Part shown: positions 17,417 through 59,357 of the stretch, one piece after another
Position numbering within the stretch: position 1 is the stretch's first letter
Layout of the letters: each line of letters opens with the position of its first letter
NCBI RefSeq assembly: GCF_000240165.1
Contig: NC_017585.1
Span: 1,302,001 to 1,366,000 of the forward strand
From: Streptantibioticus cattleyicolor NRRL 8057 = DSM 46488
GTDB taxonomy: Bacteria; Actinomycetota; Actinomycetes; Streptomycetales; Streptomycetaceae
Length of the DNA stretch: 64,000 nt
Direction: 5' to 3'
Made by a program: the position numbers and the translations under genes
The notes under the pieces: model-generated
What the model saw: only the letters and a program-made list of their open reading frames with translations
Told to the model about the DNA's origin: nothing
Database searches by the model: none

Positions 17417-18706
17417 TCACCGGGGCGGAACACCCGCTTCCGTCGGCTGGTTGAGATGCACCCGCCGGGCGGCGAGCCCGGTCAACTGGGGGCACAACCA
17501 CGACGCCTTGGCGCGCGTGTACACACTCAGGTGCGGCCCGGTCAGCCGGGCCAGCGCCAGCGCCTCCGCCCAGGCGGTGAACGGGACGACCGAGGCGACC
17601 GGCCCGACAGGGGTACGCGGCGGGGAACCGGTCGCCCGGCCCAGCAGGACGAGCGGGTACGGCACCCGGGGCACGGCACCGTCCCGTACCGTCCGGTGCC
17701 ACACGACCTCGACGCCGACGGCCGCCTCAGCGCAGGCGCTGAAGGCGCGACGCTGCCGCCGTTCGGGCAGCGCGGTGACCGGGGTGAACCGCTCGGCGGT
17801 GTAGGCGAGTTGCTCCAGGAAGGCCGGGAGCACACTGTCGTGCACCGCCACCGCGGGGGTGGCGGAGCAGGGGCGCCCGGCGCGCGCGAAGCAGGCGCGG
17901 AGCGTGCCGCGCACGGCGTCGGGCACCCGCGCGTCGTGCCGGACCACCAGGAGCCCGGGACGGTGCCGCGGGCTCCCCGGCCCGTACCGGCAGCACTGCG
18001 GCGCCGGCCCGTCGGCGTGTTCGGCGAGCACCGCGCGGACCGCCGAGGGATCCGCGTCCGCCGGGCCCCGGACGACCAGTTGCCACACGTGGCGCGGCAG
18101 CCCGGCCCGGCGAGCGGCGGCGACGACGGCGAGAGCCGGCACCGCGCTGCGCCGGTCCGCCTCGGTGACCACGGCGACCCCGTCGAGCAGCGCGGGCACC
18201 ACCCCTTCCAGCAGCGAGGCGAGCGGACGGGCGTCGTCCACCCGGGAGAACACCACGGCCGGCCGATCGGCGGACCACCACGCCGTACCCGCACCGCCGC
18301 GCCGGGGCCGGACGGCCGCCGTGAGCGAACGCACCACCCGGTCCGCGTTCCGGCACTCGGCCTCGGCATCGGGCGGCCCCAGCCCGGAGGACTCCGGCAG
18401 CACGGCGAGGAAGGCGTCCGCACCGCACGCCATCGCCCGGCGCAACCGCCGTGCCCACCGCGCCCGTTGATCCGCCGGCACCCCGCTCCACCGCCCTGCC
18501 GCCTCCCGCGCCCGGACGACGGCCGCCCGCGCCTCGCCGGCCGAGGAGACCGGCACCGACAACAGCGGCCGGCCGGAGAAGACACCGGTCACCGGCGGAT
18601 CCGGCCCGGCCGCCGCCCCCAGACCGCTGAACGCCAGCGCGTCGGCCGCGCACCCGCCGAGCAGCCGTGCCGTGGCCGGATCCGGACACACCTGACGACC
18701 CGTCAC
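17417..18706 (-). CDS. Aldehyde dehydrogenase-superfamily protein of the PUFA-type synthase operon, active site atypical
   Basis: 429 residues. The GTG at 18706 overlaps the PfaD-like stop (GTGA), so it is the last gene of the synthase operon. Superfamily signs: RAAVVRAREAAGRWSGVPADQRARWARRL near the N-terminus, LPRHVWQLVVRG in the Rossmann part, the catalytic-Cys neighbourhood ARAGRPCSATPAVAVHDSVL, and the C-terminal LTGPHLSVYTR and RVHLNQPT. The ELGG-type segment with the general-base Glu is not recognisable; its place is taken by RYGPGSPRHRP. It may therefore be an acyl-thioester reductase acting on the synthase product, or a non-oxidising relative. Gene ends 20 bases from the convergent furA stop. 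Confidence 0.72.
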   Translation of the reverse strand: MTGRQVCPDPATARLLGGCAADALAFSGLGAAAGPDPPVTGVFSGRPLLSVPVSSAGEARAAVVRAREAAGRWSGVPADQRARWARRLRRAMACGADAFLAVLPESSGLGPPDAEAECRNADRVVRSLTAAVRPRRGGAGTAWWSADRPAVVFSRVDDARPLASLLEGVVPALLDGVAVVTEADRRSAVPALAVVAAARRAGLPRHVWQLVVRGPADADPSAVRAVLAEHADGPAPQCCRYGPGSPRHRPGLLVVRHDARVPDAVRGTLRACFARAGRPCSATPAVAVHDSVLPAFLEQLAYTAERFTPVTALPERRQRRAFSACAEAAVGVEVVWHRTVRDGAVPRVPYPLVLLGRATGSPPRTPVGPVASVVPFTAWAEALALARLTGPHLSVYTRAKASWLCPQLTGLAARRVHLNQPTEAGVPPR

Positions 18707-20286
18707 CGCACACCGCCGCCGACGACGGACACCGGCGCCGCCGCGACCGGCGGCGGAGCCTCCACGCACCAGGAAGGCAGCCGCACCCCGGCGAAACGCA
18801 ACTGCGCCAGCCGGCTGTGGTAGGCGGCGCCCCGCAGCAGCGCCCCGGCCACCTCCGCCACGCGCCGGTTCTCCGGGGCGCTCCACGCGGTCCCCGCGAC
18901 CCACGCGTTGAAGGCGCCCATCGCCGGGCCGCACCAGATCTGGAAGTCCGCCTGCCGGGCCGGGTCGCCGCGCGTCGCCCAGCGGGACGACAGCCCCAGG
19001 TACCAGCGGAAGACCAGGGCCATCCGCAGCCTGGGGTCGTGCTCGGCGCGCTCGGCCCGTTCCGGATGGTGCCGGCGCAGATAGGCGGCGACGTTGGGCC
19101 ACATCGCCTCCAGCGGGCGGCGGAAGATCTCACGTTCCAGCCGGGCGCGGTCCGGGGCGGGGATGCCGTCGAGGCAGGCGTGGTCGCGGTAGAGCCGGTG
19201 GAGCCAGGCGGCCCGGCCGGGGAAGAGCGTGCCGCGTCTGAGTACCTGGACGTCCACCCCCATCTCGAACATGTCGGCCGACGGCGCCATGACGCAGTCG
19301 GTCACCCCGGCCTCCGCCAGCAGCGCCTTGACCGCGGTTGAGGTCCCGGCCTCCACGCACCCCTGGTTGACGGACCCGGTGACGATGTAGTCGGCGCCCA
19401 GCGCGAACGCCGCGAAGGCCGCCTGCGGGGTGCCGATGCCGCCCGCGGCCCCGACGCCCACCACCTTGCCGGGCCGTCCGGCGCGCGCCTCGTCGTCGCG
19501 CAGCGCGAGGACCAGGGGCAACTGGGTGACCAGCGGGCGGCGGTCGGTGTGGCCGGCGGAGTCGGCCTCCACCGTGATGTCGTCGGCCAGCGGCACCCGG
19601 GCGGCGAGCGCGGCCTGTTCGGCGGTGAGGGCACCCTGCCGCTCCAGGACGGCGACCAGTTCGGCCGGGGCGGGCCGGAGGAAGAACGCGGCCGGGCCGG
19701 CCTGGGAAACCTTGGCGATCACCTGGTGTCCGGCGTGCACCGTCCCGTCGCGGTCGCGGCGCAGCCCGGTGGCGCGGTAGCGGACCAGGTCGACGGTGGG
19801 CGTCATGAACGCCGACGCCTCGATCCTGGTCACCCCGAGCCGCAGGAAGAGGTCGACGGTCTCGCGTTCGGCTCGCGGATCGGCCGGGTTGTGGATGAGG
19901 TTGCATGCCCACGGCGCATCGGGCAGCCGCCGGTGGAGCTCGCGCAGGGCCCGTTCGACGCGTACGGTGCGCAGGCCGGCGGCGCCGTACGAGGCGAGGC
20001 ATCCGGCGTCGGCCAGGGCGACCACCAGGTCCTCGGAGGAGATGCCGCCCGCCATCGACCCGGCCATGTACGGAGCCCGCAGCCGGTGGCGCCGCAGGAA
20101 CGCGGCCGACCCCAACTGCTGGGCGGCCACCGGCGGTACGGTGGCCAGCACCTGGGCCCCGGAACGGGTGCGCGGCGGCTCGTCGCCCACCCCCACCCGT
20201 CCGTCGGCGAGGACGACGTAGCACGGCCGGTCCAGCGCGGCGACCGCGTCGCGGATACCGGCCCGGTCGAAGCGCACGGTGGTCAC
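18703..20286 (-). CDS. PfaD-type FMN enoyl reductase
   Basis: 527 residues from GTG 20286, which overlaps the previous stop (GTGA) and has GGGAGG just upstream. It follows the PfaD family over its full length: APYMAGSMAGGISSEDLV at the N-terminal barrel start, GVGAAGGIGTPQAAFAAFALGADYIVTGSVNQ for FMN phosphate binding, and the family-specific C-terminal FRWYLGLSSRWATRGD...FQIWCGPAMGAFNAW. In polyunsaturated fatty acid synthases PfaD is the trans-acting enoyl-ACP reductase. Here it would reduce double bonds made by the adjacent dehydratases. Confidence 0.93.
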   Translation of the reverse strand: MTTVRFDRAGIRDAVAALDRPCYVVLADGRVGVGDEPPRTRSGAQVLATVPPVAAQQLGSAAFLRRHRLRAPYMAGSMAGGISSEDLVVALADAGCLASYGAAGLRTVRVERALRELHRRLPDAPWACNLIHNPADPRAERETVDLFLRLGVTRIEASAFMTPTVDLVRYRATGLRRDRDGTVHAGHQVIAKVSQAGPAAFFLRPAPAELVAVLERQGALTAEQAALAARVPLADDITVEADSAGHTDRRPLVTQLPLVLALRDDEARAGRPGKVVGVGAAGGIGTPQAAFAAFALGADYIVTGSVNQGCVEAGTSTAVKALLAEAGVTDCVMAPSADMFEMGVDVQVLRRGTLFPGRAAWLHRLYRDHACLDGIPAPDRARLEREIFRRPLEAMWPNVAAYLRRHHPERAERAEHDPRLRMALVFRWYLGLSSRWATRGDPARQADFQIWCGPAMGAFNAWVAGTAWSAPENRRVAEVAGALLRGAAYHSRLAQLRFAGVRLPSWCVEAPPPVAAAPVSVVGGGVR

Positions 20287-22385
20287 GGCGCCTCCCACGG
20301 GGTGTGCAGCGCGATCCCGTCGACGGCGTAGATGCGCAGCCCGTCACGCCAGACGCTGCCGTCCGCCACCGCGACCAGCCGCCCGTCCGCCACGCGCACC
20401 TCCCGCAGGTGCACCTCCGCCTGGACCTCGCGGTCGCGCGGCAGGATCTGCCCCCGGTACGTCCAGCGCAGCACCTGCCCGGGGACCGGCACGAGCCCGC
20501 GCACCGCCTCCTCGGACAGCCTGCCGCCGTGCAGCAGAAGGAACTTCAGCGCCTGGAACAGCGTCTCCACCCCGCACGACCCGGGCAGCACCGGGTCGTC
20601 GAGGAAGTGGTGGGCGAAGTACCAGTCGTCCGCCCGCACGGCCCTGGTCACCAGCAGGCACCCCAGCCCGTACCGCCCGCCGTCCGGGACGAGGACGCAC
20701 TCGGCGCCGGACAGCAGCGCGAGGCGGCCGTGGCCGAGCGGCGGCCCGTCGTCCGCGTCGAGCCGGCGGGCCGAGGGCGGCGGCGCCTCCAGGCCGAGCA
20801 GCCACGGCGGGACACGGCGACCGCCGTCGAGGCCCTGCTGCCGGGCGAGCACCGGCCGGGTGAAGAACCCGTGCACGGTCTCCCCCTGCTGGAACACCTC
20901 GTCGTCCACGGCGAGTTCGAAGGCGTACCGCTGGAGCACCGCACCCGGCAGCGGGGTGTGCGCCAGCAGCGTGGTGCGCTGGCGGACGGTACGGCCGCAC
21001 AGCCGGACCGGGCGCAGCAGATGGCTGTGGCCCTCCAGGTTGCGGACGGTGAAGTCCTCGCCGGGGTGTTCCAGGCTGGTGCCCAGTGCGGCCCCGACGA
21101 ACGCCGTCGCCTGCAGGGCGCTCTCCAGATGCGCGAACCAGGGGAAGACGCCGCCGTTCTCCCGTACGTACCAGGGGACTTCGGGGACGTCGTACTCGGT
21201 GGTGTGCACCGAGCCGAGTGGCCGGTCGCGGCGTGGCGCGGTCAGCAGGCGGTCGAGCATCAGCATGTCGCCGCGGGGCAGCCGGGGGCGTACCCGGGCC
21301 GCCGTGGTGTGGGCGGCGGGGCCGTAGGTGACGGCGAGGTCGCCCTCGGCGGCGTGGGCCATGTGGAGTTCGTCGGCGTGGACACGTTCGCCGCGGCTGG
21401 AGCGGCGGACGGTGCCGGTGGCCGGGTCCGGGGCGACGCGGGAACCGGGCGCCTCCCGCAGGGCCACGCCCGGACCGCGTACCCAGGCGACGGTGCCGCG
21501 GGCGTCGCAGACCCGTACGTCCGCCACGAGATGGGGGCGCGGCACCAGTCCGATCGCCGTGATGTCGGCGCCCAGCGCCAGCGGGCCGGCGAGCCGGGCG
21601 ACGTCGCGGACGTGGACGGTGAGCGGCGCCCCCCGCAGCGGGTGGACGAAGGGGGCGGGCAGGCACAGGTGGAGCCCTTGGTGGAGGGCGTGCACCCCGA
21701 GCAACTGCCATACGGCACGCACCAGTTCGGTCCAGCCACGGTTGCCGGCGGGGGCGGCCGGCACGGTGGCCGTGACGTGCCCCAGCCCGTGCCGGCCGGC
21801 CCCGGGACCGGTCGGCACGGCCGAGGCGAGCAGGTCGAGCCCGGTGTGGCGGCACCAGTCGGGGTGGGCGCCCGGGGCCTGGGGACCGTCGAAGACCTCC
21901 TGGATCCGTCCGGCGGCGAGGGCGTCGAGACCGGCCCGGGACAGCACGTGCCGGGAAGCCCGTCGCAGGGGCCGCCACTGTGGCGGTACCGGGGGTACGG
22001 GGGAGTGGCAGTCGTGCGCGTCCGGTGGCGTCGCCCGGTGGGCCTCGGCCAGGATCCGTCCGTTCTGCCGGACCGTCCAGCCGGGCGGATCGGTGACCGC
22101 GAGCCCCAACAGCCGGGCGGCGCCAGATTCTTGACACCACGTCAGCTCGATGTGGACGGCTCCGGCCGGACCGGCGAGAGCGAGGGCACGTTCCCCTTCG
22201 GCGAGGACCGCGGCCGTGGTGGCGGACGGCCGCTCGGCGGCGCGCCGGCCCGGCACCGGTGGCGCGTCGGGGGCCAGCCCCTGCAACTGCGTCAGGAGCA
22301 GGTCGCCGAGGGCGCGGTGGGCGTTGAGCACGGTGGAGTGGGCCGGGACGGCAGCGGCGGGGTCGCCGAGCGCCGGATCGTCCAT
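20283..22385 (-). CDS. FabA-type dehydratase protein (PfaC-like tandem hotdog domains)
   Basis: 700 residues. The C-terminal third contains DDWYFAHHFLDDPVLPGSCGVETLFQALKFLLLHGG, the His...DPVLPGS pattern of FabA-like beta-hydroxyacyl-ACP dehydratases. The centre (RLPRGDMLMLDRLLTA, then WYVRENGGVFPWFAHLESALQATAFVG) resembles the second FabA-like unit of PfaC. The N-terminal 200 residues are only weakly suggestive of another hotdog. In PfaC these domains follow KS-CLF; here no KS or CLF is attached. It probably dehydrates, and may isomerise, the chain on the ACP. ATG 22385 is 37 bases after the ACP-KR-DH gene. Confidence 0.82.
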   Translation of the reverse strand: MDDPALGDPAAAVPAHSTVLNAHRALGDLLLTQLQGLAPDAPPVPGRRAAERPSATTAAVLAEGERALALAGPAGAVHIELTWCQESGAARLLGLAVTDPPGWTVRQNGRILAEAHRATPPDAHDCHSPVPPVPPQWRPLRRASRHVLSRAGLDALAAGRIQEVFDGPQAPGAHPDWCRHTGLDLLASAVPTGPGAGRHGLGHVTATVPAAPAGNRGWTELVRAVWQLLGVHALHQGLHLCLPAPFVHPLRGAPLTVHVRDVARLAGPLALGADITAIGLVPRPHLVADVRVCDARGTVAWVRGPGVALREAPGSRVAPDPATGTVRRSSRGERVHADELHMAHAAEGDLAVTYGPAAHTTAARVRPRLPRGDMLMLDRLLTAPRRDRPLGSVHTTEYDVPEVPWYVRENGGVFPWFAHLESALQATAFVGAALGTSLEHPGEDFTVRNLEGHSHLLRPVRLCGRTVRQRTTLLAHTPLPGAVLQRYAFELAVDDEVFQQGETVHGFFTRPVLARQQGLDGGRRVPPWLLGLEAPPPSARRLDADDGPPLGHGRLALLSGAECVLVPDGGRYGLGCLLVTRAVRADDWYFAHHFLDDPVLPGSCGVETLFQALKFLLLHGGRLSEEAVRGLVPVPGQVLRWTYRGQILPRDREVQAEVHLREVRVADGRLVAVADGSVWRDGLRIYAVDGIALHTPWEAP

Positions 22386-22422
22386 GGTCGTCGTCCCTTC
22401 GAAAGGCGGGGGTGCCGTGGGG

Positions 22423-25212
22423 TCACGCCGGGTCGGGGTGGGGGACGGGCCAGGCGGCGCGGCTGCCGAGCTGCGGTGCGGCGACGATGCCCTTCAGGCC
22501 GCTCCAGCGTTGCAGGACGGTGCCGTCGGGCAGGCAGGCCGTCACGGCGCAGGTCAGCTCCAGCGGGTTGTGGTCGAGCAGTTCCGCAGTGATGGTGAAG
22601 GGCTCGCCGTCCGGCAGCGGCGCGAGGAGTTCGACCCGTTCCACCGCGACGGGCAGGCAGCGGTGACCGCAGACCCGCCGGCCGAGCAGCGCGGCGGCCT
22701 GGAGGAGGAGATCGGCCAGCGCCGGGCTGTGGTACGCGCCCGCGTAGGCGCCGCCGGCCAGCGGGGGATCGGGCAGGCACGCCTGGACGGTCAGCCGGGC
22801 GTCGTCCTCGTGGAGCACCGGTCCCAGCCCGCGCAGCAGCGGCCCGTGGAAGAGGAACCCCTCGTCGTAGGCCGGGTGGAACAGGAACGGCGGCGGCGCA
22901 GCGGCGGCCGGGGCGGCGGGCGCCGGACGCGGGACGCCGGTGTCCTCGGCCGTGCGGAAGACGCCCTCGTAGCGCGGTACCGCGGGCGCCGCGTCGTCGT
23001 GGACGGTCACCGTGGTCCCGCCGTCCGGACGCGGGCGCAGCACGACGCGGGCGCGCGCCGGGTGGGCGCCGTTCAGCACCAGCCCCTTGCGGACCCGGAA
23101 GTCGCGGACCTCGGTCACCGCCCGGCCGCCCGCGGTGCGCTCCACGGCGCCCAGGCACCAGCCGATCGCCGCGGTCATCGGGAGCACCGGGTGGCCGTCG
23201 ATGGTGTGGTCGCGCAGCACCGGTTCGGCGGCGAGACCGGTCAGGTCCCGCAGCAACTCGGCCCCGCCGGACGGCAGCGGGGCGGGCGGCACCGGCGGGG
23301 TGAGCGGACCGAGCACGGCGACCACGTCGTCACCGCGCTCGGCGGCGAACTGCTCGGTGAAGTAGGCGCACCCCTCCTCCCGTGACAGCACCGGCACCCC
23401 GAGCCGCCGGAACAGGTCCTGCGTGTGCTCGGTCGCCATGCCGCCACGCCACGGCCCCCAGGCGAGCGCGGCGACCCGGGTCCCGGGCCGGGCGGCCTTC
23501 CAGGCGCAGGCGAAGCGGTTGAGCGCCTCGTTGGCCATCGCGTAGTCCGTCTGCCTGCCGTTGCCGAAGACCCCGGAGACCGAGGTGAACAGGACGAGAT
23601 GGCGCAGCCGTTCGGCCGGGAGGACATCCGCCACGTTGAGCAGACCGGTGAGCTTGGTGGCGACCACCCGCTCGACGTCCCGCGGGCGCTTCGCCGCCAG
23701 AGGCTGGTCGGCCAGGACGCCGGCCCCGTGGACGACGCCGGTCACCTGGTCGGCGTAGGGGGCGAGCGCGGTGCGCAGCGCGTCGGTGTCGCCGACGTCG
23801 ACGCCGAGGTAGTCGGCCCGGGCGCCGAGGCCGCGCAGGGCGGTGAGGGTCGCGTCCAACTCCCGCTGCCGGTACAGGAGTTGGGCCTGCGCCTCGACGG
23901 CCTCCTGGTGGTCCGGGTGGCGTGGGTCCCGTCCCTCGGCACGGGACCGCGCGGCGCACGCCTCCCGCAGCGCGGGCAGGGTGTCCAGGCCGGCGGCCCA
24001 GTCGGGCGGATCCGCCTGCGGGGTACGCCCCAGCAGCAGCAAGCGGCACGGCCGGCGGGCGGCCAGCGCGATCAGGCACCAGGCGGTGATGCCCCGGGCC
24101 CCGCCGGTGACCACCAGGAAGTCGTCCGGACCCGGCTCGTCCACCGCGGGCCCGGACGGCAGCAGCCCCGAAGGGCGGGGTGACAACGCCAGGGCGCGGC
24201 GCGACACACCGTCCCAGGCGACCTCCGGGACGGGCGCGGCGTCGGCCGCCTCGCGCACCACCTGCCCGGCCGACTCGGCCGGGTCGAGCCCGGGCGCGAG
24301 GTCCACGGTGCGGCAGAACACGTCCGGTTCCTCGACGGCGACCGCCTTGGTCAGCCCGCCCAGGCCGCCGTGGAGCGCCTGGGCGAGGTCACCGCCGGAA
24401 CCGGCCAGCCCCAGCGCGCCGTCGAGCTGGGTGACGGCGAGGAAGCCGGCCCGGTGTCCATCGGCGGCGGCCCGTTTCAGCGCCGGCACGGTGTGTTTGG
24501 CGACGAGCACGGCGTGCCGCAGCCGGGTGACGGCGTCCCGCGCGCCGACCGCCGTTCCCCGGCCGGCGACCAGCAGGCACAGGTCGAGCCGTTCCTCCGG
24601 CGGCACCAGGTGACCGATCTCCTTGCGCAGCGTCCCCTCCCGCCAGTCGGGCAGGCACCGGCCGGAGGCGCCGTCGGCGGTGCCCGGGATCCCCAGGCGG
24701 CGCACGTTCCACCCCTCGGCGGTGAAGGCGGTGGCCAGCGCGTCCGCCAGGGCGCTGCCGTCCGCCACGAGGAGCGCGGTGGGCCGCGGCCGGTAGGGGT
24801 CCGCGAGCGTGTCGACCGGGGGCAGCGGACGCAGGCCCACGCAGGCCCGTCCCGCGGGGCGCACCGGGACCGGCTCGCCGGGTGCCGCCGGTGCCGCCGG
24901 GGCCGTCGTGCTGGCGGCGAGCAGTCCGGCCAGCTCCCGTACGGTGCGGGCCTGCGCGAAGCGGTAGATCTCCTCGCGCGGCAGGAACGGGTAGCGGCGC
25001 CAGGCCTCGGAGGCGATCTCGACCTGCTTGAGGGAGTCGATCCCCAGGTCGGTCTGGATGTCGAGGGACGGGTCGACCATCTCGACGGTGTAACCGGTCT
25101 TCTCGGCGACGAGTTCACGCAGGATGCGTTCGACCTCGGCCGGGTCGGTGGGCGGGGTGCCGGGCGCCTCGACGGGCGCGGGCGCTTCGGCCTGGTTCGC
25201 GGAGGTGTTCAT
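22423..25212 (-). CDS. ACP-KR-DH protein of a PUFA-type synthase
   Basis: 929 residues. Residues 22-100 are one acyl carrier domain; the phosphopantetheine Ser is about residue 60 in DLGIDSLKQVE. Residues of about 110-600 are a PfaA-type ketoreductase, with NADPH loop VVTGGARGIT, catalytic Ser in FTSVSGVFGN and Tyr in TDYAMANEALN. Residues 600-900 are a product-template-like dehydratase hotdog beginning LRDHTIDGHPVLPM. PfaA proteins have the same KR and DH but four to nine tandem ACPs after KS-AT; here there is one ACP, at the N-terminus of a separate protein. GAGGAAG precedes ATG 25212; 25 bases separate it from the KS-AT gene. Confidence 0.9.
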   Translation of the reverse strand: MNTSANQAEAPAPVEAPGTPPTDPAEVERILRELVAEKTGYTVEMVDPSLDIQTDLGIDSLKQVEIASEAWRRYPFLPREEIYRFAQARTVRELAGLLAASTTAPAAPAAPGEPVPVRPAGRACVGLRPLPPVDTLADPYRPRPTALLVADGSALADALATAFTAEGWNVRRLGIPGTADGASGRCLPDWREGTLRKEIGHLVPPEERLDLCLLVAGRGTAVGARDAVTRLRHAVLVAKHTVPALKRAAADGHRAGFLAVTQLDGALGLAGSGGDLAQALHGGLGGLTKAVAVEEPDVFCRTVDLAPGLDPAESAGQVVREAADAAPVPEVAWDGVSRRALALSPRPSGLLPSGPAVDEPGPDDFLVVTGGARGITAWCLIALAARRPCRLLLLGRTPQADPPDWAAGLDTLPALREACAARSRAEGRDPRHPDHQEAVEAQAQLLYRQRELDATLTALRGLGARADYLGVDVGDTDALRTALAPYADQVTGVVHGAGVLADQPLAAKRPRDVERVVATKLTGLLNVADVLPAERLRHLVLFTSVSGVFGNGRQTDYAMANEALNRFACAWKAARPGTRVAALAWGPWRGGMATEHTQDLFRRLGVPVLSREEGCAYFTEQFAAERGDDVVAVLGPLTPPVPPAPLPSGGAELLRDLTGLAAEPVLRDHTIDGHPVLPMTAAIGWCLGAVERTAGGRAVTEVRDFRVRKGLVLNGAHPARARVVLRPRPDGGTTVTVHDDAAPAVPRYEGVFRTAEDTGVPRPAPAAPAAAAPPPFLFHPAYDEGFLFHGPLLRGLGPVLHEDDARLTVQACLPDPPLAGGAYAGAYHSPALADLLLQAAALLGRRVCGHRCLPVAVERVELLAPLPDGEPFTITAELLDHNPLELTCAVTACLPDGTVLQRWSGLKGIVAAPQLGSRAAWPVPHPDPA

Positions 25213-25237
25213 GGTGGCTTCCTCGTCGGGTTCGTGC

Positions 25238-28156
25238 CTACAGGGGGCGGGGCGGCGGGGACGTCGGGGGCTGGGGGGCGTCGGCCGGTCCGGGCGCGGC
25301 GGAGCGGTCCGGCGGCGGTCCGGTGGGCGTGCACCGGTAGGGGACGGCGAGCCCGGCCTCGTACGCCGCCCGGCGCGCCCGCATCGCGAACACGGGTCCG
25401 GCCAGCCGCCGGGCCACGGGGGACGGCGGGGCGGGGGGCGGTGGGTCCGGCGCGTCGTAGCGGTTGATGTGCCGGATGCCGAAGCCCAGGACGGCCAGCC
25501 GCAGCGCCGCGTTCTTCAGTGCCGCCGCGCTGTCCGTCCCCGGCCCGGTGTCGGCGGGCACGGTCTCCACGGTGGCGTCGCCGAGGGTACGTCGCACCAG
25601 CCGGCTCAGGATCCCCTTGGGGCCGCACTCGACGAAGACCCGGCAGCCGTCGTCGTACAACTCCCGTACCCGGCCCGCGAAGTCGACCGGGCGCGTGATC
25701 TGCTCGGCGAGGACGCGCCGGTCGGCCTCCGGGTCCGTGCCGTACCGGGCCCCGGGGGTGCAGGCGAGCACCGGGTGGGCCGGCGGGCGTACCTCGGTGC
25801 GGGAGACGGCCTCGGCGAAGACGGGGACCGCGTGCGCCATCAGCGGGGTGTGGAAGGCGGCGGCCACCGGCAGGCGGCGCACGGCCGGTCCGCCGTCGCG
25901 CAGGCAGGCCGCGGCCAGTTCCTCGACGGCCGGGGTGGGGCCGCCGACCACGATCTCGTCCGGGGCGTTGATGTTGCACAGCGCCAACTGCGGGAAGTTC
26001 TGGGCACGTTGGCGCCATTCCTCGGCGGACAGCCGTACCGCGGCCATCGCTCCCGCGTCGCGGTCCGTGCCGCCCGGTGCCGGCCGCATGGCCTGACCGC
26101 GCCGCCGGGTGAGCAGCAGGCAGTCCGCGTCGGACAGGCTCCCGGCCGACCACAGCGCGGTCACCTCGCCGCAGCTGTGCCCCAGCGCCGCCGCCGGGGC
26201 GAACCCCAGCTCGGCGAGGTAGGCGTAGTGGCCCATGGCGAGCGCCCCGATCGCCGGCTGCGCGTACGCGGTGCGACGCAACCGGGCCGTATCGGCGGCC
26301 GGGTCACGCCGCCCCGGCTCGGGGTGGACGACCTGGGCCAGCGTCTCCTCCTCCCCCTCCCACAGCGCGTTGGCGTCGTCGAAGGCCCGGCGGACCGGGG
26401 GGACGGCGAGGAGCGCGTCGGCCCCCATGCCGACGTACTGGCTGCCCTGGCCGGCGAAGAGCACGGCGGCCCGCGCGTCGGGCGGCAGCCCCGAACGCCG
26501 GTAGTGCGCACGTCCGGCGAGGGTCCAGCCGTCGGCGTCCGGGGTGTCGGACAGCCGTGCCGTCGCCGCGGCCAGCAGCGCCTCGCGGTCCGCCGCGTCG
26601 TGGACGAGGACGCCCAGCCGGGCGTGGTGCGGCGGCACCGGGCCGCCGTCGGCCGGGTCCGCGCCGTCGCGCACCAGGGCGAGCAGCGCGGCCGGGTCGG
26701 GGGCGTGCCACACCAACGCCCGCGGGGTGCGGTGCAGCGTCCGGGGCGGGGTGGGCGGGTGTTCCTCCAGGACGGCGTGGAAGTTCACCCCGCCGAAGCC
26801 GAACGAGGAGACCCCGGCGCGGCGCACCGGACGGGCCGGGTCACGGATCCAGGGGCGGGCGCGGGTGTTGACGTACAGGGCGCTGTCGCGGAGCGCGTCG
26901 TTGGGTTCGGTGACGTTGATGGTGGGCGGCAGCAGGCGGTGGTGCAGGGCGAGCGCCGCCTTGATCAGCCCGGCCGCGCCGGCCGCCGCCTTGGTGTGCC
27001 CGATCTGGGACTTCACGCTGCCGACGGCGATCCGCGGCCGGTCCGGGGCGGGGCCGAGAACGGTGCGCAGGGCGCCGAGTTCGACGGTGTCGCCGACCCG
27101 GGTGCCCGTGCCGTGCGCCTCGATCAGCTCCACGGAGGCGGCGGGGACCCCGGCGTCGGCGTAGGCCCGGCGCATCGCGGTGACCTGACCGTCGGCGCTG
27201 GGGGCGTAGATGCTGCCGGTGCGGCCGTCGCTGGAGCCGCCGAGTCCGCGCAGCACGGCGTAGACGCGGTCGCCGTCCCGTTCGGCGTCGGCGAGGCGTT
27301 TGAGCGCCAGCATGCCGATGCCCTCGCCGAGCAGGGTGCCGTCGGCCTCCCGGTCGAAGGGGCGGACGGCGCCGCTGGGCGACAGGGCCGGTGTCTTGCT
27401 GAAGCACAGGAACGTGGTGACCGAGTTGTCGGCGTCGCAGCCCCCGGTGATCATCAGGTCGGCGCGGTGCTCGACGAGTTCGCTCACCGCCATCCGCAAC
27501 GCGGCCAGCGAGCTGGCGCACGCGGCGTCGACCACGCAGTTGGCGGCGCCCAGGCCGAACCGGTTGGCGATGCGCCCGGCGACGACGTTGGCCAGGATCC
27601 CGGGGAAGCTGTCCTCGGTCCACTCCGGGGACTCCGCGAGGAACCTGCGGGCGATCTCGTCGGCGTCCCGGGGCGACAGACCGCAACTGAGCGCCGCCCT
27701 GCGCACGGCGGGGGCACGCAACCGGGAGGCGAGCGGCACCATCGTGCTGTTCTGGCCGCACACCCCGAGGACCACCCCGGTGCGGCCCGGGTCGTACCAC
27801 GCCGCCCCCGGGCACCCGGCGTCCCGCAGCACCTCACGCGCCACCCGCAGACTCAGCAACTGCACCAGCCCGATGGAGTCCAGCGTCGCGGGCGGCATGG
27901 CGAACTCCACGGGGTCGAAGACGACCGGCGGCAGAAAGCCACCACGCCGGGCGTACGTCTTGTCCGGCGCCCGCATGTCGGGGTCGTAATGGTCGGCGAC
28001 GCTCCATGACGTCTCCGGCACGTCGGTGACGCAGTCGCGGCCGGTCACCACGTTGTCCCAGAACTCCCGCACGTCGTGCGCCTGCGGGAACATCGCCGCC
28101 AGGCCGACGATGGCGACGGGGTGCCCGGAGGGCTGGTACGCGTGTGAATCCACCAC
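25238..28156 (-). CDS. PfaA-like ketosynthase-acyltransferase
   Basis: 972 residues. KS: Cys about 213 (DAACASS), His about 348 (EAHGTGT) and His about 387 (GHTKAAAG), all present. The segment MPPATLDSIGLVQLLSLRVA is typical of PfaA-type KS domains. AT: FAGQGSQYVGMG at about 570 and the nucleophile Ser at about 662 in LGHSCGEVTALW. The last 100 residues are Pro-rich. It would load malonyl units and extend the chain on the ACP of the next protein. GTG 28156 has GAGG six bases upstream; another GTG follows directly. A hairpin separates it from the small upstream gene. Confidence 0.93.
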   Translation of the reverse strand: MVDSHAYQPSGHPVAIVGLAAMFPQAHDVREFWDNVVTGRDCVTDVPETSWSVADHYDPDMRAPDKTYARRGGFLPPVVFDPVEFAMPPATLDSIGLVQLLSLRVAREVLRDAGCPGAAWYDPGRTGVVLGVCGQNSTMVPLASRLRAPAVRRAALSCGLSPRDADEIARRFLAESPEWTEDSFPGILANVVAGRIANRFGLGAANCVVDAACASSLAALRMAVSELVEHRADLMITGGCDADNSVTTFLCFSKTPALSPSGAVRPFDREADGTLLGEGIGMLALKRLADAERDGDRVYAVLRGLGGSSDGRTGSIYAPSADGQVTAMRRAYADAGVPAASVELIEAHGTGTRVGDTVELGALRTVLGPAPDRPRIAVGSVKSQIGHTKAAAGAAGLIKAALALHHRLLPPTINVTEPNDALRDSALYVNTRARPWIRDPARPVRRAGVSSFGFGGVNFHAVLEEHPPTPPRTLHRTPRALVWHAPDPAALLALVRDGADPADGGPVPPHHARLGVLVHDAADREALLAAATARLSDTPDADGWTLAGRAHYRRSGLPPDARAAVLFAGQGSQYVGMGADALLAVPPVRRAFDDANALWEGEEETLAQVVHPEPGRRDPAADTARLRRTAYAQPAIGALAMGHYAYLAELGFAPAAALGHSCGEVTALWSAGSLSDADCLLLTRRRGQAMRPAPGGTDRDAGAMAAVRLSAEEWRQRAQNFPQLALCNINAPDEIVVGGPTPAVEELAAACLRDGGPAVRRLPVAAAFHTPLMAHAVPVFAEAVSRTEVRPPAHPVLACTPGARYGTDPEADRRVLAEQITRPVDFAGRVRELYDDGCRVFVECGPKGILSRLVRRTLGDATVETVPADTGPGTDSAAALKNAALRLAVLGFGIRHINRYDAPDPPPPAPPSPVARRLAGPVFAMRARRAAYEAGLAVPYRCTPTGPPPDRSAAPGPADAPQPPTSPPPRPL

Positions 28157-28230
28157 TGATGACCTCGGTTTCCTTGACGTTTACGGAGGTTTGACGCGGC
28201 GCGCGGCACGGGCCGCGATCGCGCCGCCCG

Positions 28231-28268
28231 ACCGGATCCGGCGAGGCCGGGACCGCGCCGGATCCGGT
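28231..28268 (-). terminator. Hairpin between the small protein gene and the KS-AT gene
   Basis: ACCGGATCCGGCG (28231-28243) and CGCCGGATCCGGT (28256-28268) are perfect 13-base arms around a 12-base loop. The stem starts 17 bases after the small protein's stop and 75 before the KS-AT start. It could terminate a short transcript, leaving read-through or a second promoter for the synthase genes. Confidence 0.7.
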
Positions 28269-28284
28269 GCCGCGGCGAAGCGGG

Positions 28285-28584
28285 CTACCGCGCCGGTGTC
28301 TTCGACGGCGCCCGCCCCGTCACCGCGTCCAGGAGCTGGCGCATCCGGTCGAACTCGGCGCGCAGCGCCTCGATCCGCTCGTCGTCGGGGCCGCGTTCCC
28401 GCTGGGCACGGGTGGCTTCGTCACGGACGTCGCAGCCCGCGGCGCGCTGCCTGCGTACGGCGGACGGCGACTCACCGCCGCCCTCGACCATGTCCAGGGC
28501 GTCGATGACGTCGTCGAGGTAGTCCTTGATGTCCGCGACGAGCTCGTGCAGCACGCGGGCGAGGTGGAAGCGGTGCAGTGGCAT
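28285..28584 (-). CDS. Small charged helical protein preceding the synthase genes, unknown function
   Basis: 99 residues; ATG 28584 has GGAAGGAA upstream. The N-terminal half (HLARVLHELVADIKDYLDDVIDALDMVEGG) is acidic and amphipathic. The C-terminal half (DDERIEALRAEFDRMRQLLDAV) has heptad-like spacing and could form a coiled coil. A single Cys is present. No family was recognised. It is the first gene on the strand that carries the synthase, so it might help assembly or dosing of the enzyme, but a strong hairpin follows it and the link is positional only. Confidence 0.6.
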   Translation of the reverse strand: MPLHRFHLARVLHELVADIKDYLDDVIDALDMVEGGGESPSAVRRQRAAGCDVRDEATRAQRERGPDDERIEALRAEFDRMRQLLDAVTGRAPSKTPAR

Positions 28585-56056: not shown

Positions 56057-56624
56057 CGGTCACCTCTCCTTCGTCGGGGGGCGGGCCGGGGAGGACCTCG
56101 ACCCGGCACGAGAGGTGGACCGGGCAGCTCGCCCGGACGACGGCGAGCACCTGCGCCGGATCCACCTCGGCGACCCGTTCCGGCCAGACCCGTACCAGCA
56201 GTTCCCCGGAGGGCGCGGGCGGCAGGGGCGCGCCGGGGGTGGTCGACCAGTACACGCCGCCGCCGTCCGTGATCCGCGCGCCGACCCCGAGGGCGAGCCG
56301 CAGCAGCTCCCGCAACCCGCGTCGCGTCCCGCGCAGGCGGTGCAGCTCCACCGCGCGCGCGACCACGGTGCGGCGTACCTCGTCCGGCCACGAGGGGTCG
56401 TCCTCCACCCCGAGCCACCGCGCCAGCCAGGCGAGGAAGTCCGGCGGCGCCAGCCGTGGCTGGAAGTAGGCGGGCAGGTTGTCCAGCGTGGCGAAGACCG
56501 GCGCGAGGACGGTGTCGAGACCGGCCGTGAACCGCTGGGCGAAGTCGTCGTCCGCGTAGAGCGCGGGCAGCAGGCCGCCGATCGGGTGCGGCGTCGGCAG
56601 TCCGGGGACGGCGGCGCGGCTCAT
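56049..56624 (-). CDS. Phage tail protein I-like baseplate wedge protein
   Basis: 191 residues from ATG 56624, which overlaps the baseplate J stop. LPALYADDDFAQRFTAGLDTVLAPVFATLDNLPAYFQPRLAPPDFLAWLARWLG and RRTVVARAVELHRLRGTRRGLRELLRLALG are the signature of the TIGR02242/P2-I-like tail family found in phage-tail-like particles (Afp12-like). It forms the outer baseplate wedge with baseplate J. The C-terminal 50 residues look like a small beta domain. No separate tail fibre gene follows. Confidence 0.88.
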   Translation of the reverse strand: MSRAAVPGLPTPHPIGGLLPALYADDDFAQRFTAGLDTVLAPVFATLDNLPAYFQPRLAPPDFLAWLARWLGVEDDPSWPDEVRRTVVARAVELHRLRGTRRGLRELLRLALGVGARITDGGGVYWSTTPGAPLPPAPSGELLVRVWPERVAEVDPAQVLAVVRASCPVHLSCRVEVLPGPPPDEGEVTDA

Positions 56625-58582
56625 GCCGTACCCCCCGGCGCCGGGGGCTCGACGGCGACCTGGTGCTGGTAGGAGAAGACCAGGGTGTCCGGCGCGAGGT
56701 CGATCCGCTCGGCCGGGGCGCCACGGCGTCCGGTGACCGGATCCGCGGGGAAGAGCCGCAACTCCTCGACGGAGGCCACCCCCGCCACCCGTTGCAGCAG
56801 CGCGAAGACGTCGCCGTACCGCACGGCCAGGCCGAACGGCCAGCCGGTCCCGTCCGGTCCGCCGCGCAGCGGGTTGAGGTGGCGGTACAGGGCGGCCAGC
56901 GCCGACTGCCGTACCCGGTCCGTCCCGTCCGGGCGGCCGGTGAGCCGGGCCACCACCGTCACCCCCTGGTAGTCGGGGGGCCGCACCACCAGGCGGGTGC
57001 CGACCAGACGCCGTTCGTCGAGGGCCGACGCGATGGCGGCCAGCATCGGCTCGCCGGGGATCAACTGCTCGAAACGCAGCCGGTCGCCGTCGTCCGCGAC
57101 CGCGTCCGGCGTCACCAGCACGCGCACCGCGCCCGGCTCGTCCGCGACCGCGGGCAGACAGGTGACCCGCGCCGCGGACGGGGCCGCCTGCCGGGCGATC
57201 ACCTCGAAGTCCCGTGCCGTGACGGCCCGTTCCTGGAGCCGCAGCACATGCGGGGCGCGCAGCCGGGCGTTCTCCACCGTCTCGCCGTCCACCCCGCCCC
57301 GGGCCGCCTCGCGGTTGCCGACCCGGGCCACGTACGGCACCGAGCTGCGCAGCAGCGAGATGGCGCCGCGGGCCACGTTGCCCGCGGTGCCGCCGCCGGT
57401 GCGGTAGGAGGGGACGCGCAGCCGGGCGCCCTTGGGGGGTACGGCACCGAAGGCGCGCAGGGCGCCGTCGGGCTCGCGGACGGCGGGCGGGAAGGCGAAC
57501 TCCCCCGTGGTGGCGTCGATCACCACGTGCCGGTCGGCGGGGCCGGAGTCGCCGAAGTGCTCGACGGCCGTCCAGGTCTCCCATCCGTCACCCGCCGACA
57601 CCTCCACCACCGGCGGCTCCCCGTCCAGCAGCACCGGTGCCTTGGCGAGCCGGAAGCGCTGCCCCGCGACGCCCTCGGAGGTGCCCAGGGGCGCGTCGGT
57701 CACGGTCTCCGCGTGGGTGACGGTGGCCGTGCCGCCCACCGTGAAGACCTCGGCGCGCCGGATCGTCGGCGACTCGGAGTAGAACGGCTGGTCCGGGGCG
57801 GGCTCGGTCACCCGGCAGCGCAGCCAGCCCGCGGTGCGGCCGAGGACCGCCGACGCGGTGTGTCCGTCCGGCACGAAGACGACCACCTCACCGGCCCGGT
57901 TGAGGCCGCCGGTGGTGTCCGAGCCGGTCTCGCAGCCGATCCACCGCGCGCCGTCCCACACCTCCCACACCAGCGGCGGCTGCCGTGGATCGACCCCGAC
58001 GCCCTCGACCCGGCTGTCGAGGCGCACCACGAGGATGCACCGGGGCACCACGGCGGGCAGGCCGAAGAGCATGGTGTCGCCCGGCTCCGGACGCGTCTGG
58101 AAACACGGCACGTCGGCGCCCTCGGCCAACCGCCCGGTGCGGTCGGTGTGTTCCCCGGTGGCGGAGACGGTGACCAGCCGGTCCAGGGCGCTGGGGACGA
58201 CGGCGAGGTCCTCGGTGGTGGCGAAGACCACGGCCTCCTCGGTCCCGGTGCGCACCGTGGAGACCTCGGTGCCCGCCCGGAGCGGCACCGTGTCGGGCTG
58301 CGGGGCGGAGAGCCAGAAGTCCACCTCGGCGGTTGCCGCCGCCGGGGGGAAGAGCCGGATGCCCAGCAGGTCGAGGAAGGCGGTGTAGTTCTTCTCCGGC
58401 ACCCGGTTGAGCCGGTACAGCAACTGGTCGACCAGGTAGGCGAAGGTCTCGATGAGGGTGACCCCGGGGTCGGAGACGTTGTGGTCGGTCCACTCCGGGG
58501 CGCGCTGCTGCACGTACCGCTTGGCCTCGTCGACGAGTTGCTGGAACCGGCGGTCGTCCAGGTTGGGGGAGGGCAGCGCCAT
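56621..58582 (-). CDS. Baseplate J/gp47-like protein
   Basis: 653 residues, the long form seen in contractile injection systems (Afp11-like). The N-terminal PNLDDRRFQQLVDEAKRYVQQRAPEWTDHNVSDPGVTLIETFAYLVDQLLYRLNRVPEKNYTAFLDLLGIRL is the diagnostic start of 'putative baseplate assembly' proteins. ARGAISLLRSSVPYVARVGNREAARGG and AVTARDFEVIARQAAPS give the core gp6/gp47 region. It builds the wedge that opens on contraction. Overlaps gp25 by start/stop (TGATG). Confidence 0.93.
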   Translation of the reverse strand: MALPSPNLDDRRFQQLVDEAKRYVQQRAPEWTDHNVSDPGVTLIETFAYLVDQLLYRLNRVPEKNYTAFLDLLGIRLFPPAAATAEVDFWLSAPQPDTVPLRAGTEVSTVRTGTEEAVVFATTEDLAVVPSALDRLVTVSATGEHTDRTGRLAEGADVPCFQTRPEPGDTMLFGLPAVVPRCILVVRLDSRVEGVGVDPRQPPLVWEVWDGARWIGCETGSDTTGGLNRAGEVVVFVPDGHTASAVLGRTAGWLRCRVTEPAPDQPFYSESPTIRRAEVFTVGGTATVTHAETVTDAPLGTSEGVAGQRFRLAKAPVLLDGEPPVVEVSAGDGWETWTAVEHFGDSGPADRHVVIDATTGEFAFPPAVREPDGALRAFGAVPPKGARLRVPSYRTGGGTAGNVARGAISLLRSSVPYVARVGNREAARGGVDGETVENARLRAPHVLRLQERAVTARDFEVIARQAAPSAARVTCLPAVADEPGAVRVLVTPDAVADDGDRLRFEQLIPGEPMLAAIASALDERRLVGTRLVVRPPDYQGVTVVARLTGRPDGTDRVRQSALAALYRHLNPLRGGPDGTGWPFGLAVRYGDVFALLQRVAGVASVEELRLFPADPVTGRRGAPAERIDLAPDTLVFSYQHQVAVEPPAPGGTA

Positions 58583-59004
58583 CAGTCGTCGTCTCCGTCC
58601 TCGGGGTCCGGCGAGACCGGAATGGTGTAGAAGGGGAAGACGAGGTTGCGCCGGTCGTTGGTGGAGCGCACGGAGTAGCGCAGGTCGATGTAGAGGGTGC
58701 CGAGGTCGACGGTGTCGAAGGCGATCAGCACGTCCTCGACGTCGATCCGCGGCTCCCAGCGCTCCAGCGCCGCCCGCACCTCCCGGGCGATACGGCCCGC
58801 GGTGGAGCCGTCGCCCGGCGCGAAGACGTGCTCGTGGATGCCGCAGCCGAACTCCGGGCGCATCGGCCGCTCGCCCGGCGCCGTACCGAGGATCAGCCGG
58901 ATGGACTCGGCGATCTCCCGGTCCCGGTCGACCATGCCGATGCCGCCGGTGGCGTTGACGCGCAGCGGGAACGCCCAGCCGCGGCCGATGAACCCCCCGC
59001 TCAC
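58582..59004 (-). CDS. GPW/gp25 family baseplate protein
   Basis: 140 residues from GTG 59004, overlapping the PAAR gene's stop (GTGA). Contains GRGWAFPLRVNATGGIGMVDRDREIAESIRLILGTAPGERPMRPEFGCGIHEHVFA, matching gp25, whose EPR-like motif (here ERPMRPEFG) is conserved. gp25 starts sheath polymerisation from the baseplate. Between PAAR and baseplate J as in other injection systems. Confidence 0.93.
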   Translation of the reverse strand: MSGGFIGRGWAFPLRVNATGGIGMVDRDREIAESIRLILGTAPGERPMRPEFGCGIHEHVFAPGDGSTAGRIAREVRAALERWEPRIDVEDVLIAFDTVDLGTLYIDLRYSVRSTNDRRNLVFPFYTIPVSPDPEDGDDD

Positions 59005-59312
59005 ACCACGCCTCCGATCAGCACGTCGAAGGCTCCGACGACCACCTGGGCGCCGCAGGCCGTCCTGTCCCGCGCGCGGGCCGCGGGCAGGCCGCCGATG
59101 AGGACCAGCCCCGGCCCCCCGGTGGCCGCGCCGGGCAGGATGACGTTGGCGGGGCCCAGTTCGGGGTGGGCGGGGCAGACGTGCAGGCTGCCGGTGACGG
59201 CCGCCGGCCGGCCGCCGATCAGTACGGTCTCCACCGCGACGGCGCCCGGCGGCGGGGTCGTGATGACACCGCCGTGATCCGTGGCGTCGCCCGTCCTGGC
59301 TGCGGGGGGCAT
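59001..59312 (-). CDS. PAAR-repeat spike-tip protein
   Basis: 103 residues. ARTGDATDHGGVITTPPPGAVAVETVLIGGRPAAVTGSLHVCPAHP, then GPGLVLIGGLPAARARDRTACGAQVVVGAFDVLIGG shows PAAR repeats with His/Cys (DHGG, HVCPAH, TACG) that would bind a metal at the tip. It caps the VgrG-like spike. No toxin extension, so any effector must be loaded by another route. Confidence 0.9.
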   Translation of the reverse strand: MPPAARTGDATDHGGVITTPPPGAVAVETVLIGGRPAAVTGSLHVCPAHPELGPANVILPGAATGGPGLVLIGGLPAARARDRTACGAQVVVGAFDVLIGGVV

Positions 59313-59357
59313 GTGCGTTCTCCATTCCGAGGGTGGTCAACGGCGCCCAGCGCCGGG

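Follow-up and report, generated by a model that had tools for sequence, protein, structure and literature searches.

A compact Pfa-type synthase operon with a split PfaA and no chain-length factor on the linear megaplasmid of Streptantibioticus cattleyicolor

The Pfa-type enzyme line is how marine microbes make omega-3 fatty acids. An operon related to this line lies on the linear megaplasmid pSCAT of Streptantibioticus (Streptomyces) cattleyicolor NRRL 8057 = DSM 46488, a soil bacterium that produces thienamycin, within a 64-kb stretch of contig NC_017585.1 (hereafter the window, in whose numbering positions are given). Codon-bias gene calling and Pfam/NCBIfam scans define five co-directional genes on the minus strand, which encode a ketosynthase–acyltransferase protein (KS-AT; 25238–28156, 972 aa), an acyl carrier protein–ketoreductase–dehydratase protein (ACP-KR-DH; 22423–25212, 929 aa), a stand-alone FabA-type dehydratase (DH) protein (20283–22385, 700 aa), a PfaD-type enoyl reductase (ER; 18703–20286, 527 aa) and a protein resembling aldehyde dehydrogenase (ALDH-like; 17417–18691, about 424 aa). 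An earlier reading of the bare sequence (the original prediction) had anticipated this run of genes, and profile scans recovered each of them in its predicted place. Most junctions are as tight as had been proposed: 25 nt separate KS-AT from ACP-KR-DH, 37 nt separate ACP-KR-DH from the DH protein and 11 nt separate PfaD from the ALDH-like gene, and the DH stop and PfaD start overlap by 4 bases (GTGA). The exception, and the widest spacing, is the 128 nt between KS-AT and a 99-codon open reading frame (ORF) upstream. The GTG at 20286, overlapping the DH stop, was chosen as the PfaD start in an open frame that extends to 20298, and the length of about 424 aa for the ALDH-like protein reflects the start chosen at 18691.

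The first two proteins correspond to the N-terminal and C-terminal halves of PfaA. KS-AT matches the PfaA model TIGR02813 with 907 bits, compared with 509 bits for the next NCBIfam family, and TIGR02813 is also the best NCBIfam model for ACP-KR-DH (336 bits); both values lie under the whole-protein cut-off of 1010, as expected because the proteins are halves. KS-AT keeps the Cys/His/His motifs of the KS and the Ser/His motifs of the AT (GHSCGE, AAFH), and ACP-KR-DH has a single ACP (GIDSL), a KR motif and, as read by eye, the histidine motif of a DH of the polyketide synthase (PKS) type (DHTIDGHPVLP). The PfaA domain set (KS-MAT-ACP-KR-DH) is complete, but spread over two proteins.

Phylogenetic placement of the KS, a check that the original prediction had named, came out in favor of PfaA. 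Among the 37 rows (36 different) of a first KS tree, the window's domain fell inside the PfaA clade and joined a five-member group (support 100/99) with those of Streptomycetaceae genome G043, Streptomyces sp. WAC 01529, S. mashuensis and a second S. cattleyicolor locus. KS/CLF (chain-length factor) pieces of up to about 330 aa (from L020, L050, L052, L053, L055, L057, L061, L066, and L067) and one L053 duplicate were removed from this tree, and one G043 duplicate was retained. A second tree of 27 chosen rows, including modular KS domains of the same genome and trans-AT KS domains, gave a 12-row PfaA clade (100/99) containing the five-member group (100/100), with the 11 modular and trans-AT rows outside. 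A modular PKS origin of the KS was rejected, as both KS trees put it with PfaA. PfaD scores 578 bits against TIGR02814 (curated cut-off 449). The best four of its six PDB relatives are ERs of polyunsaturated fatty acid (PUFA) synthases, with 6lkc and 4yx6 at the top, and the last two are the trans-AT enzymes DfnA and MlnA. In the PfaD tree (23 rows) these five members again group together (100/98), among PfaDs of Pfa-type loci; this tree and the PDB relatives led to the rejection of PfaD as a trans-AT type ER. Because the KS and PfaD trees share the five-member group, PfaA and PfaD appear to have traveled together. The operon could be mistaken for a fragment of an ordinary modular or trans-AT PKS, where KS, AT, KR, DH, and ER domains also occur and where PfaD-like ERs serve trans-AT lines, but the KS and PfaD trees place it elsewhere, which makes this account highly improbable. 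With a KS, an ACP, and a KR, and with the KS related to Pfa-type pathways, the operon is a secondary lipid synthase as the available text of PMC3098273 uses that term (at least one KS, ACP, and KR, with the KS related to validated Pfa-type pathways). The genome has a third PfaD-family gene (L020 13309–16572, contig C2, about 3.861 Mb), a 1087-aa ORF that starts acyltransferase-like and adjoins modular PKS genes; its PfaD part groups with a trans-AT type ER.

The operon has one ACP, no CLF, and no PfaB-type AT, as had been predicted and as the ACP motif count, the KS search, and the domain scans agree. The KS search (E 1e-10, frames of at least 250 codons) found no second KS or CLF in the window, the sole KS being that of KS-AT, and no tandem ACPs accompany the one ACP in the operon; this search and the motif count led to the rejection of an overlooked CLF or additional ACPs in the window. 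Genome-wide, a query with the CLF of genome G106 gave 55 matches, the best of which was the window's own KS (116.7 bits), and no PUFA-type CLF was recognized. As a control, a nearly identical CLF domain was run against five other CLFs, which it matched with 250–634 bits, and against the window KS, where it reached 120 bits. The only AT in the operon is that of KS-AT, and no PfaB-type AT was found there (a genome-wide search was not made). No phosphopantetheinyl transferase (PPTase) was found among the scanned genes, which are part of the window's genes, in line with the original prediction. As an argument this absence is weak: a genome search with PF01648 found five PPTase-family genes, all on the other contig, so a missing operonic PPTase means little.

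The 700-aa DH protein aligns only to the C-terminus of PfaC proteins that bear KS-CLF-AT and two FabA-type units, and on this alignment it looks like a C-terminal remnant of PfaC. It consists of an N-terminal helix-like stretch (22281–22340; likeness judged by eye), a decayed first FabA-type unit (21441–21938), which lacks the HFxxDPVLAG active-site segment in the alignment, and a second unit with the active-site motif HHFLDDPVLPG (20580–20612), all on the minus strand. Full PfaC proteins carry WYFxCHFxxDPVLAGS, or a variant such as WFFDGHFHHDPCMPGT, in the first unit in all eight rows that cover it (the Azospirillum row is too short to do so). This segment is gone from all five stand-alone DH proteins (window, G043, WAC 01529, S. 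mashuensis, and Rhodococcus opacus), and the second-unit HF-x-x-DPV-x-PGS is kept in the same five. The label of FabA-type dehydratase therefore held for the protein, but with a first unit that has no active-site segment. By eye, a stretch ahead of the DH region in full PfaC proteins (e.g., THSVVMETQRVLQDS) can be matched to one in the window (AHSTVLNAHRALGDL), and retention of such a stretch where the enzymes are gone, as in the 88-aa ORF of the second locus, suggests a docking or scaffold role.

The break in PfaA falls after the AT; among the CLF-less loci, a split PfaA was found only in the window. After the AT, unsplit relatives have some 70 conserved residues that look helical (HLELHTQYVEGQLHTARSL...VEAVRDHGVALSRAHIRAQEVLL in WAC 01529; also in R. 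opacus and S. albogriseolus), and these are missing from the window. Other PfaA splits occur in PfaBC-bearing loci, in S. albogriseolus (after the ACPs) and in G033. An assembly slip was rejected as unlikely: a separately deposited plasmid record, NC_016113.1 (1,809,491 vs. 1,812,548 bases), agrees with the window at every one of the 32,100 bases compared, so that the gene boundaries are independent of one assembly, and a GAGGAAG stretch precedes the ATG of the ACP-KR-DH gene. One ACP is present in the window and in each of the four other members of the five-member KS group. The original prediction took the single ACP as a sign of a different product. The count stood, but the argument is weak: a single-ACP PfaA also accompanies PfaC-like proteins in three loci (G024, G071, and G033), and is therefore not peculiar to the CLF-less type.

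The architecture had been described as unusual, and its plan was confirmed, but it is not unique to this genome. The split of PfaA aside, the CLF-less plan recurs in WAC 01529, S. mashuensis, G043, and R. opacus. A search of 121 sampled Streptomycetaceae genomes with the DH protein gave matches in 13: two with a stand-alone, full-length protein (S. cattleyicolor itself and G043), ten in frames of 2439–3322 aa (full PfaC type), and one with only a short part matched, in a frame of 435 aa. Matches were found in 11 of 70 genomes from the genus of G060, all in frames of more than 2000 aa, and in 7 of 41 relatives, all in frames of 1938–2646 aa except that of S. cattleyicolor itself; the three samples overlap. 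A scan of genome contigs with short peptide patterns, a method limited to close relatives, brought in WAC 01529 and S. mashuensis (two relatives in 27 candidate stretches), and a plasmid scan added R. opacus pRho-G13. The R. opacus locus (L062 9297–19557) encodes a three-ACP PfaA, a DH protein of 675 aa with a decayed first unit, and PfaD; the KS search found only one KS, and no CLF, in its 37.5 kb. The CLF-less plan is rare yet recurrent in these samples. The DH tree (unrooted, 12 rows, drawn without G024, G033, G071, and Azospirillum) parts R. opacus from the four Streptomycetaceae (100/99), and the KS trees leave unsettled the placement of R. opacus beside S. albogriseolus, which has a full PfaBC. 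Two independent losses of the CLF, one in Streptomycetaceae and one in R. opacus, are possible. Another Pfa-like type occurs in G017 and G019 (L111, L112), with PfaD, a two-ACP PfaA, and a KS-containing protein that runs off the stretch; neither genome matched the DH protein in the 121-genome query.

Seven Streptomycetaceae loci with a fused PfaBC (G042, G060, G064, G106, G120, G133, and the S. albogriseolus plasmid) have relatives of PfaA, the DH region, and PfaD in the same order as the window. They differ in that PfaBC carries KS-CLF-AT and two FabA-type units, in that at least two ACPs are present where PfaA was fully read, and in two further genes of about 570–610 aa after PfaD. Twenty types of secondary lipid synthase have been defined (Shulse and Allen, 2011; PMC3098273), and in the available text of that survey a split pfaA (Types D and H) and a synthase of PfaD and PfaA only (Type J) are on record. 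The fused-PfaBC loci do not fit the description of Type L given there (pfaD first, AT last). With the canonical PfaABCDE systems (Types A and B), as described in the same text, the window shares a PfaA-type KS-AT-ACP-KR-DH set, a FabA-type DH, PfaD, and the clustering of the genes, whereas it lacks tandem ACPs, KS-CLF, the PfaB AT, and an adjacent pfaE, has one FabA-type unit with the motif instead of two, and has PfaA split after the AT. The window synthase may overlap in part with Type Q (Rhodococcus erythropolis PR4; PMC3098273, available text); the only lead is the R. opacus locus, which has the window's plan but differs in its three ACPs and unsplit PfaA. A published precedent for a Pfa-like system without KS-CLF is Ottowia pfaBC, which differs in having a pfaD-pfaA fusion beside a line of PKS and nonribosomal peptide synthetase modules (PMC13291983, available text). 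Among the literature matches listed, judged by titles and the openings of abstracts, no paper concerned a CLF-less PfaA-DH-PfaD operon in Streptomyces, and none described an inactivated first DH together with a split, single-ACP PfaA. The available text of PMC10434180 gives 16 and 15 biosynthetic gene clusters on the two deposited versions of the plasmid, counts that probably include this locus; PUFA or hglE was not found in that text.

The second Pfa-like synthase of S. cattleyicolor (L009 8375–16279; contig C2, about 6.09–6.10 Mb) consists of an unsplit, single-ACP PfaA, an 88-aa ORF, and PfaD, with no FabA-type DH or CLF protein in the locus. It resembles Type J (Planctomyces limnophilus), which has no DH/CLF protein either, but the Type J PfaA has three ACPs, whereas L009 has one and the additional 88-aa ORF (PMC3098273, available text). 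The two S. cattleyicolor synthases might share parts, the second locus borrowing the megaplasmid DH protein so that both yield one product. In favor are the missing dehydratase of the second locus in a genome where the DH protein query matches only the window itself, and the 88-aa ORF, which by eye contains a stretch (NRAHTAVLDAHRAVL) like the one preceding the DH region elsewhere. Yet the two PfaA proteins are only 52% identical and are encoded on different contigs, and S. mashuensis, which is nearest to the second locus, has its own DH protein; sharing of this kind appears unlikely.

The last gene of the operon bears out its ALDH-like label in part. The Pfam match is partial (68 bits; only parts of the ALDH profile are matched), and the protein ends before the usual C-terminal arm, as does its homologue in WAC 01529, which is 50% identical and is encoded after PfaD, past one extra gene of 286 aa. 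Both homologues keep the ALDH cysteine (GRPCS, GRMCS). The glutamate of the usual ELGG motif, which drives hydrolysis in ordinary ALDHs, is absent from both, with APQCC near that site.

Gene calling places a small gene of 99 aa (28285–28584, minus strand) upstream of KS-AT. Its product has only a sub-threshold match to DUF6779 and has a counterpart in the same place upstream of PfaA in G043 (46% in tblastn; the same residue in 51 of 94 aligned codons). Changes between the 99-aa gene and this counterpart number 51 at third positions vs. 30 and 27 at the other codon positions, and those between the ALDH-like gene and its homologue number 223 vs. 141 and 127. For each gene the true frame was compared with two shifted frames, and third-position changes pile up only in the true frame, on which ground chance ORFs were rejected for both. 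No TTA codon occurs in the six genes (the 99-aa ORF and the five operon genes), and thus there is no hint of bldA control. A gene for a UbiB/ABC1-type kinase lies upstream, and genes for a Fur-type regulator and a catalase-peroxidase lie downstream; these have no evident role in the pathway. The Fur-type gene, which converges on the operon from the catalase-peroxidase side, is the sole regulator beside it. Several lost domains, a shortened ALDH, a split PfaA, and a converging Fur-type gene as the only adjacent regulator would also be compatible with a decaying remnant that makes no product, but the catalytic motifs of the remaining domains are present, the genes are tightly spaced, the codon-position pattern is that of selection, and the same plan, apart from the split, is kept in other species, so that decay is distinctly improbable. 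Elsewhere in the window, Baseplate-J-like and phage baseplate V/GPD-type genes (56621–61139) appear, from their domain content, to belong to a contractile injection system carried by the megaplasmid.

Published roles of the domains bear on the likely product. In prokaryotic PUFA synthases, chains of C2–C10 and C16–C18 are extended by the PfaA KS and those of C10 and C20 by KS-CLF, while the DH of the PKS type leads to reduction and those of the FabA type to cis double bonds; a eukaryotic enzyme makes no PUFA once its first FabA-type unit is lost, and after loss of the second it still makes a little docosapentaenoic acid but no docosahexaenoic acid (DHA) (PMC9702510, available text). PfaB is a long-chain acyltransferase (PMC12895367, available text). 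The simplest account of the origin of the operon would be by losses from a PfaA-PfaBC-PfaD system; it no longer has KS-CLF, a PfaB-type AT, or an active site in the first FabA-type unit. With these three missing, eicosapentaenoic acid (EPA) or DHA is not expected, and the view that the product is distinct from EPA/DHA is well supported; it would not be a methylene-interrupted C20–C22 PUFA. The most likely product has a shorter chain and few double bonds, if any. That a shorter chain had been proposed is reasonable in view of the KS-CLF roles, although chain length itself is not readable from the sequence. The operon is thus probably a minimal iterative Pfa-type synthase, its product being a chain of short to medium length with little unsaturation at most, which the ALDH-like protein may release reductively. 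In such a synthase, a PPTase encoded elsewhere would convert the ACP to its holo form, and the PfaA KS alone would build a short-to-medium chain, saturated or with one or a few double bonds; judged by its domains, one motif-bearing FabA-type DH and one ER, saturated, mono-unsaturated, and partly conjugated chains would all fit, which leaves the unsaturated lipid or polyene of the original prediction as one option among several. The ALDH-like protein, with its cysteine kept and no glutamate, might reductively free the acyl chain as an aldehyde or might transfer it, and release might alternatively occur by transfer to another pathway or by hydrolysis. The ALDH-like route is favored over the others solely because the gene sits in the operon.

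Several points weigh against this picture of a minimal synthase with ALDH-like release. The unreadable chain length is one, and the CLF query could miss a very degenerate CLF of the kind found in G024 or G071. The acidic residue after the second-unit motif (GVE in the window; GVE or GIE) is Q in S. mashuensis, where the second DH unit may therefore be impaired. The ALDH-like gene occurs in only two of the six CLF-less loci (window and WAC 01529); none was found by domain search in the stretches of G043, S. mashuensis, the second locus, and R. opacus, of which S. mashuensis is no fair test because its contig ends 0.9 kb after PfaD. AlphaFold models of the ALDH-like protein (mean predicted local distance difference test score, pLDDT, 34.8) and the DH protein (mean pLDDT 41.2) are of low confidence and add nothing reliable.

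The acyl chain may instead stay on the ACP and be passed to another pathway, for example an OleA-type condensation or an assembly line. Sets resembling OleA, OleB, OleC, and OleD lie beside Pfa-like synthases in two genomes: in G043, with an ACP and a KS, on the other strand beside the CLF-less synthase (L065 13136–19506, L049), and in G024, with an extra KS and an ACP, directly before PfaD-PfaA-PfaC (L066 6086–15141, L052). The OleC and OleD model matches in both genomes are under curated cut-offs. From their gene content, such cassettes could feed beta-lactone or olefin products, and coupling of Pfa and Ole is established in Shewanella; oleABCD can cluster with pfa (PMC6463001, available text). 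These cases illustrate a use to which such acyl chains can be put. Against such a hand-over, no Ole-type genes were found among the scanned window genes, and the S. cattleyicolor plasmid is absent among the 12 listed of 225 OleA-like plasmid records, which does not settle presence. Hand-over is rather doubtful for this operon, and a minimal synthase, perhaps with release of its own chain, is the preferred reading.

A broader proposal, put forward tentatively, is that these loci form a distinct class of Pfa synthase in Actinomycetota, which would have dropped KS-CLF, PfaB, and the activity of the first DH and kept the decayed hotdog unit with its leading helix as a docking scaffold, one branch having gained a thioester-reducing ALDH-like protein that would give the product an aldehyde end. 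The control of chain length and double-bond placement by PUFA synthases is still not fully understood, and such a class, if real, would provide a naturally occurring way to test the contributions of KS-CLF and of the first FabA-type DH to PUFA synthesis. A machine with no CLF, one ACP, and one motif-bearing DH would offer a small experimental system for the PfaA ketosynthase acting alone. For S. cattleyicolor, a well-known antibiotic producer, the operon flags an unexplored lipid or lipid-derived metabolite, and the smaller of the genome's two synthases seems to have no dehydratase partner.

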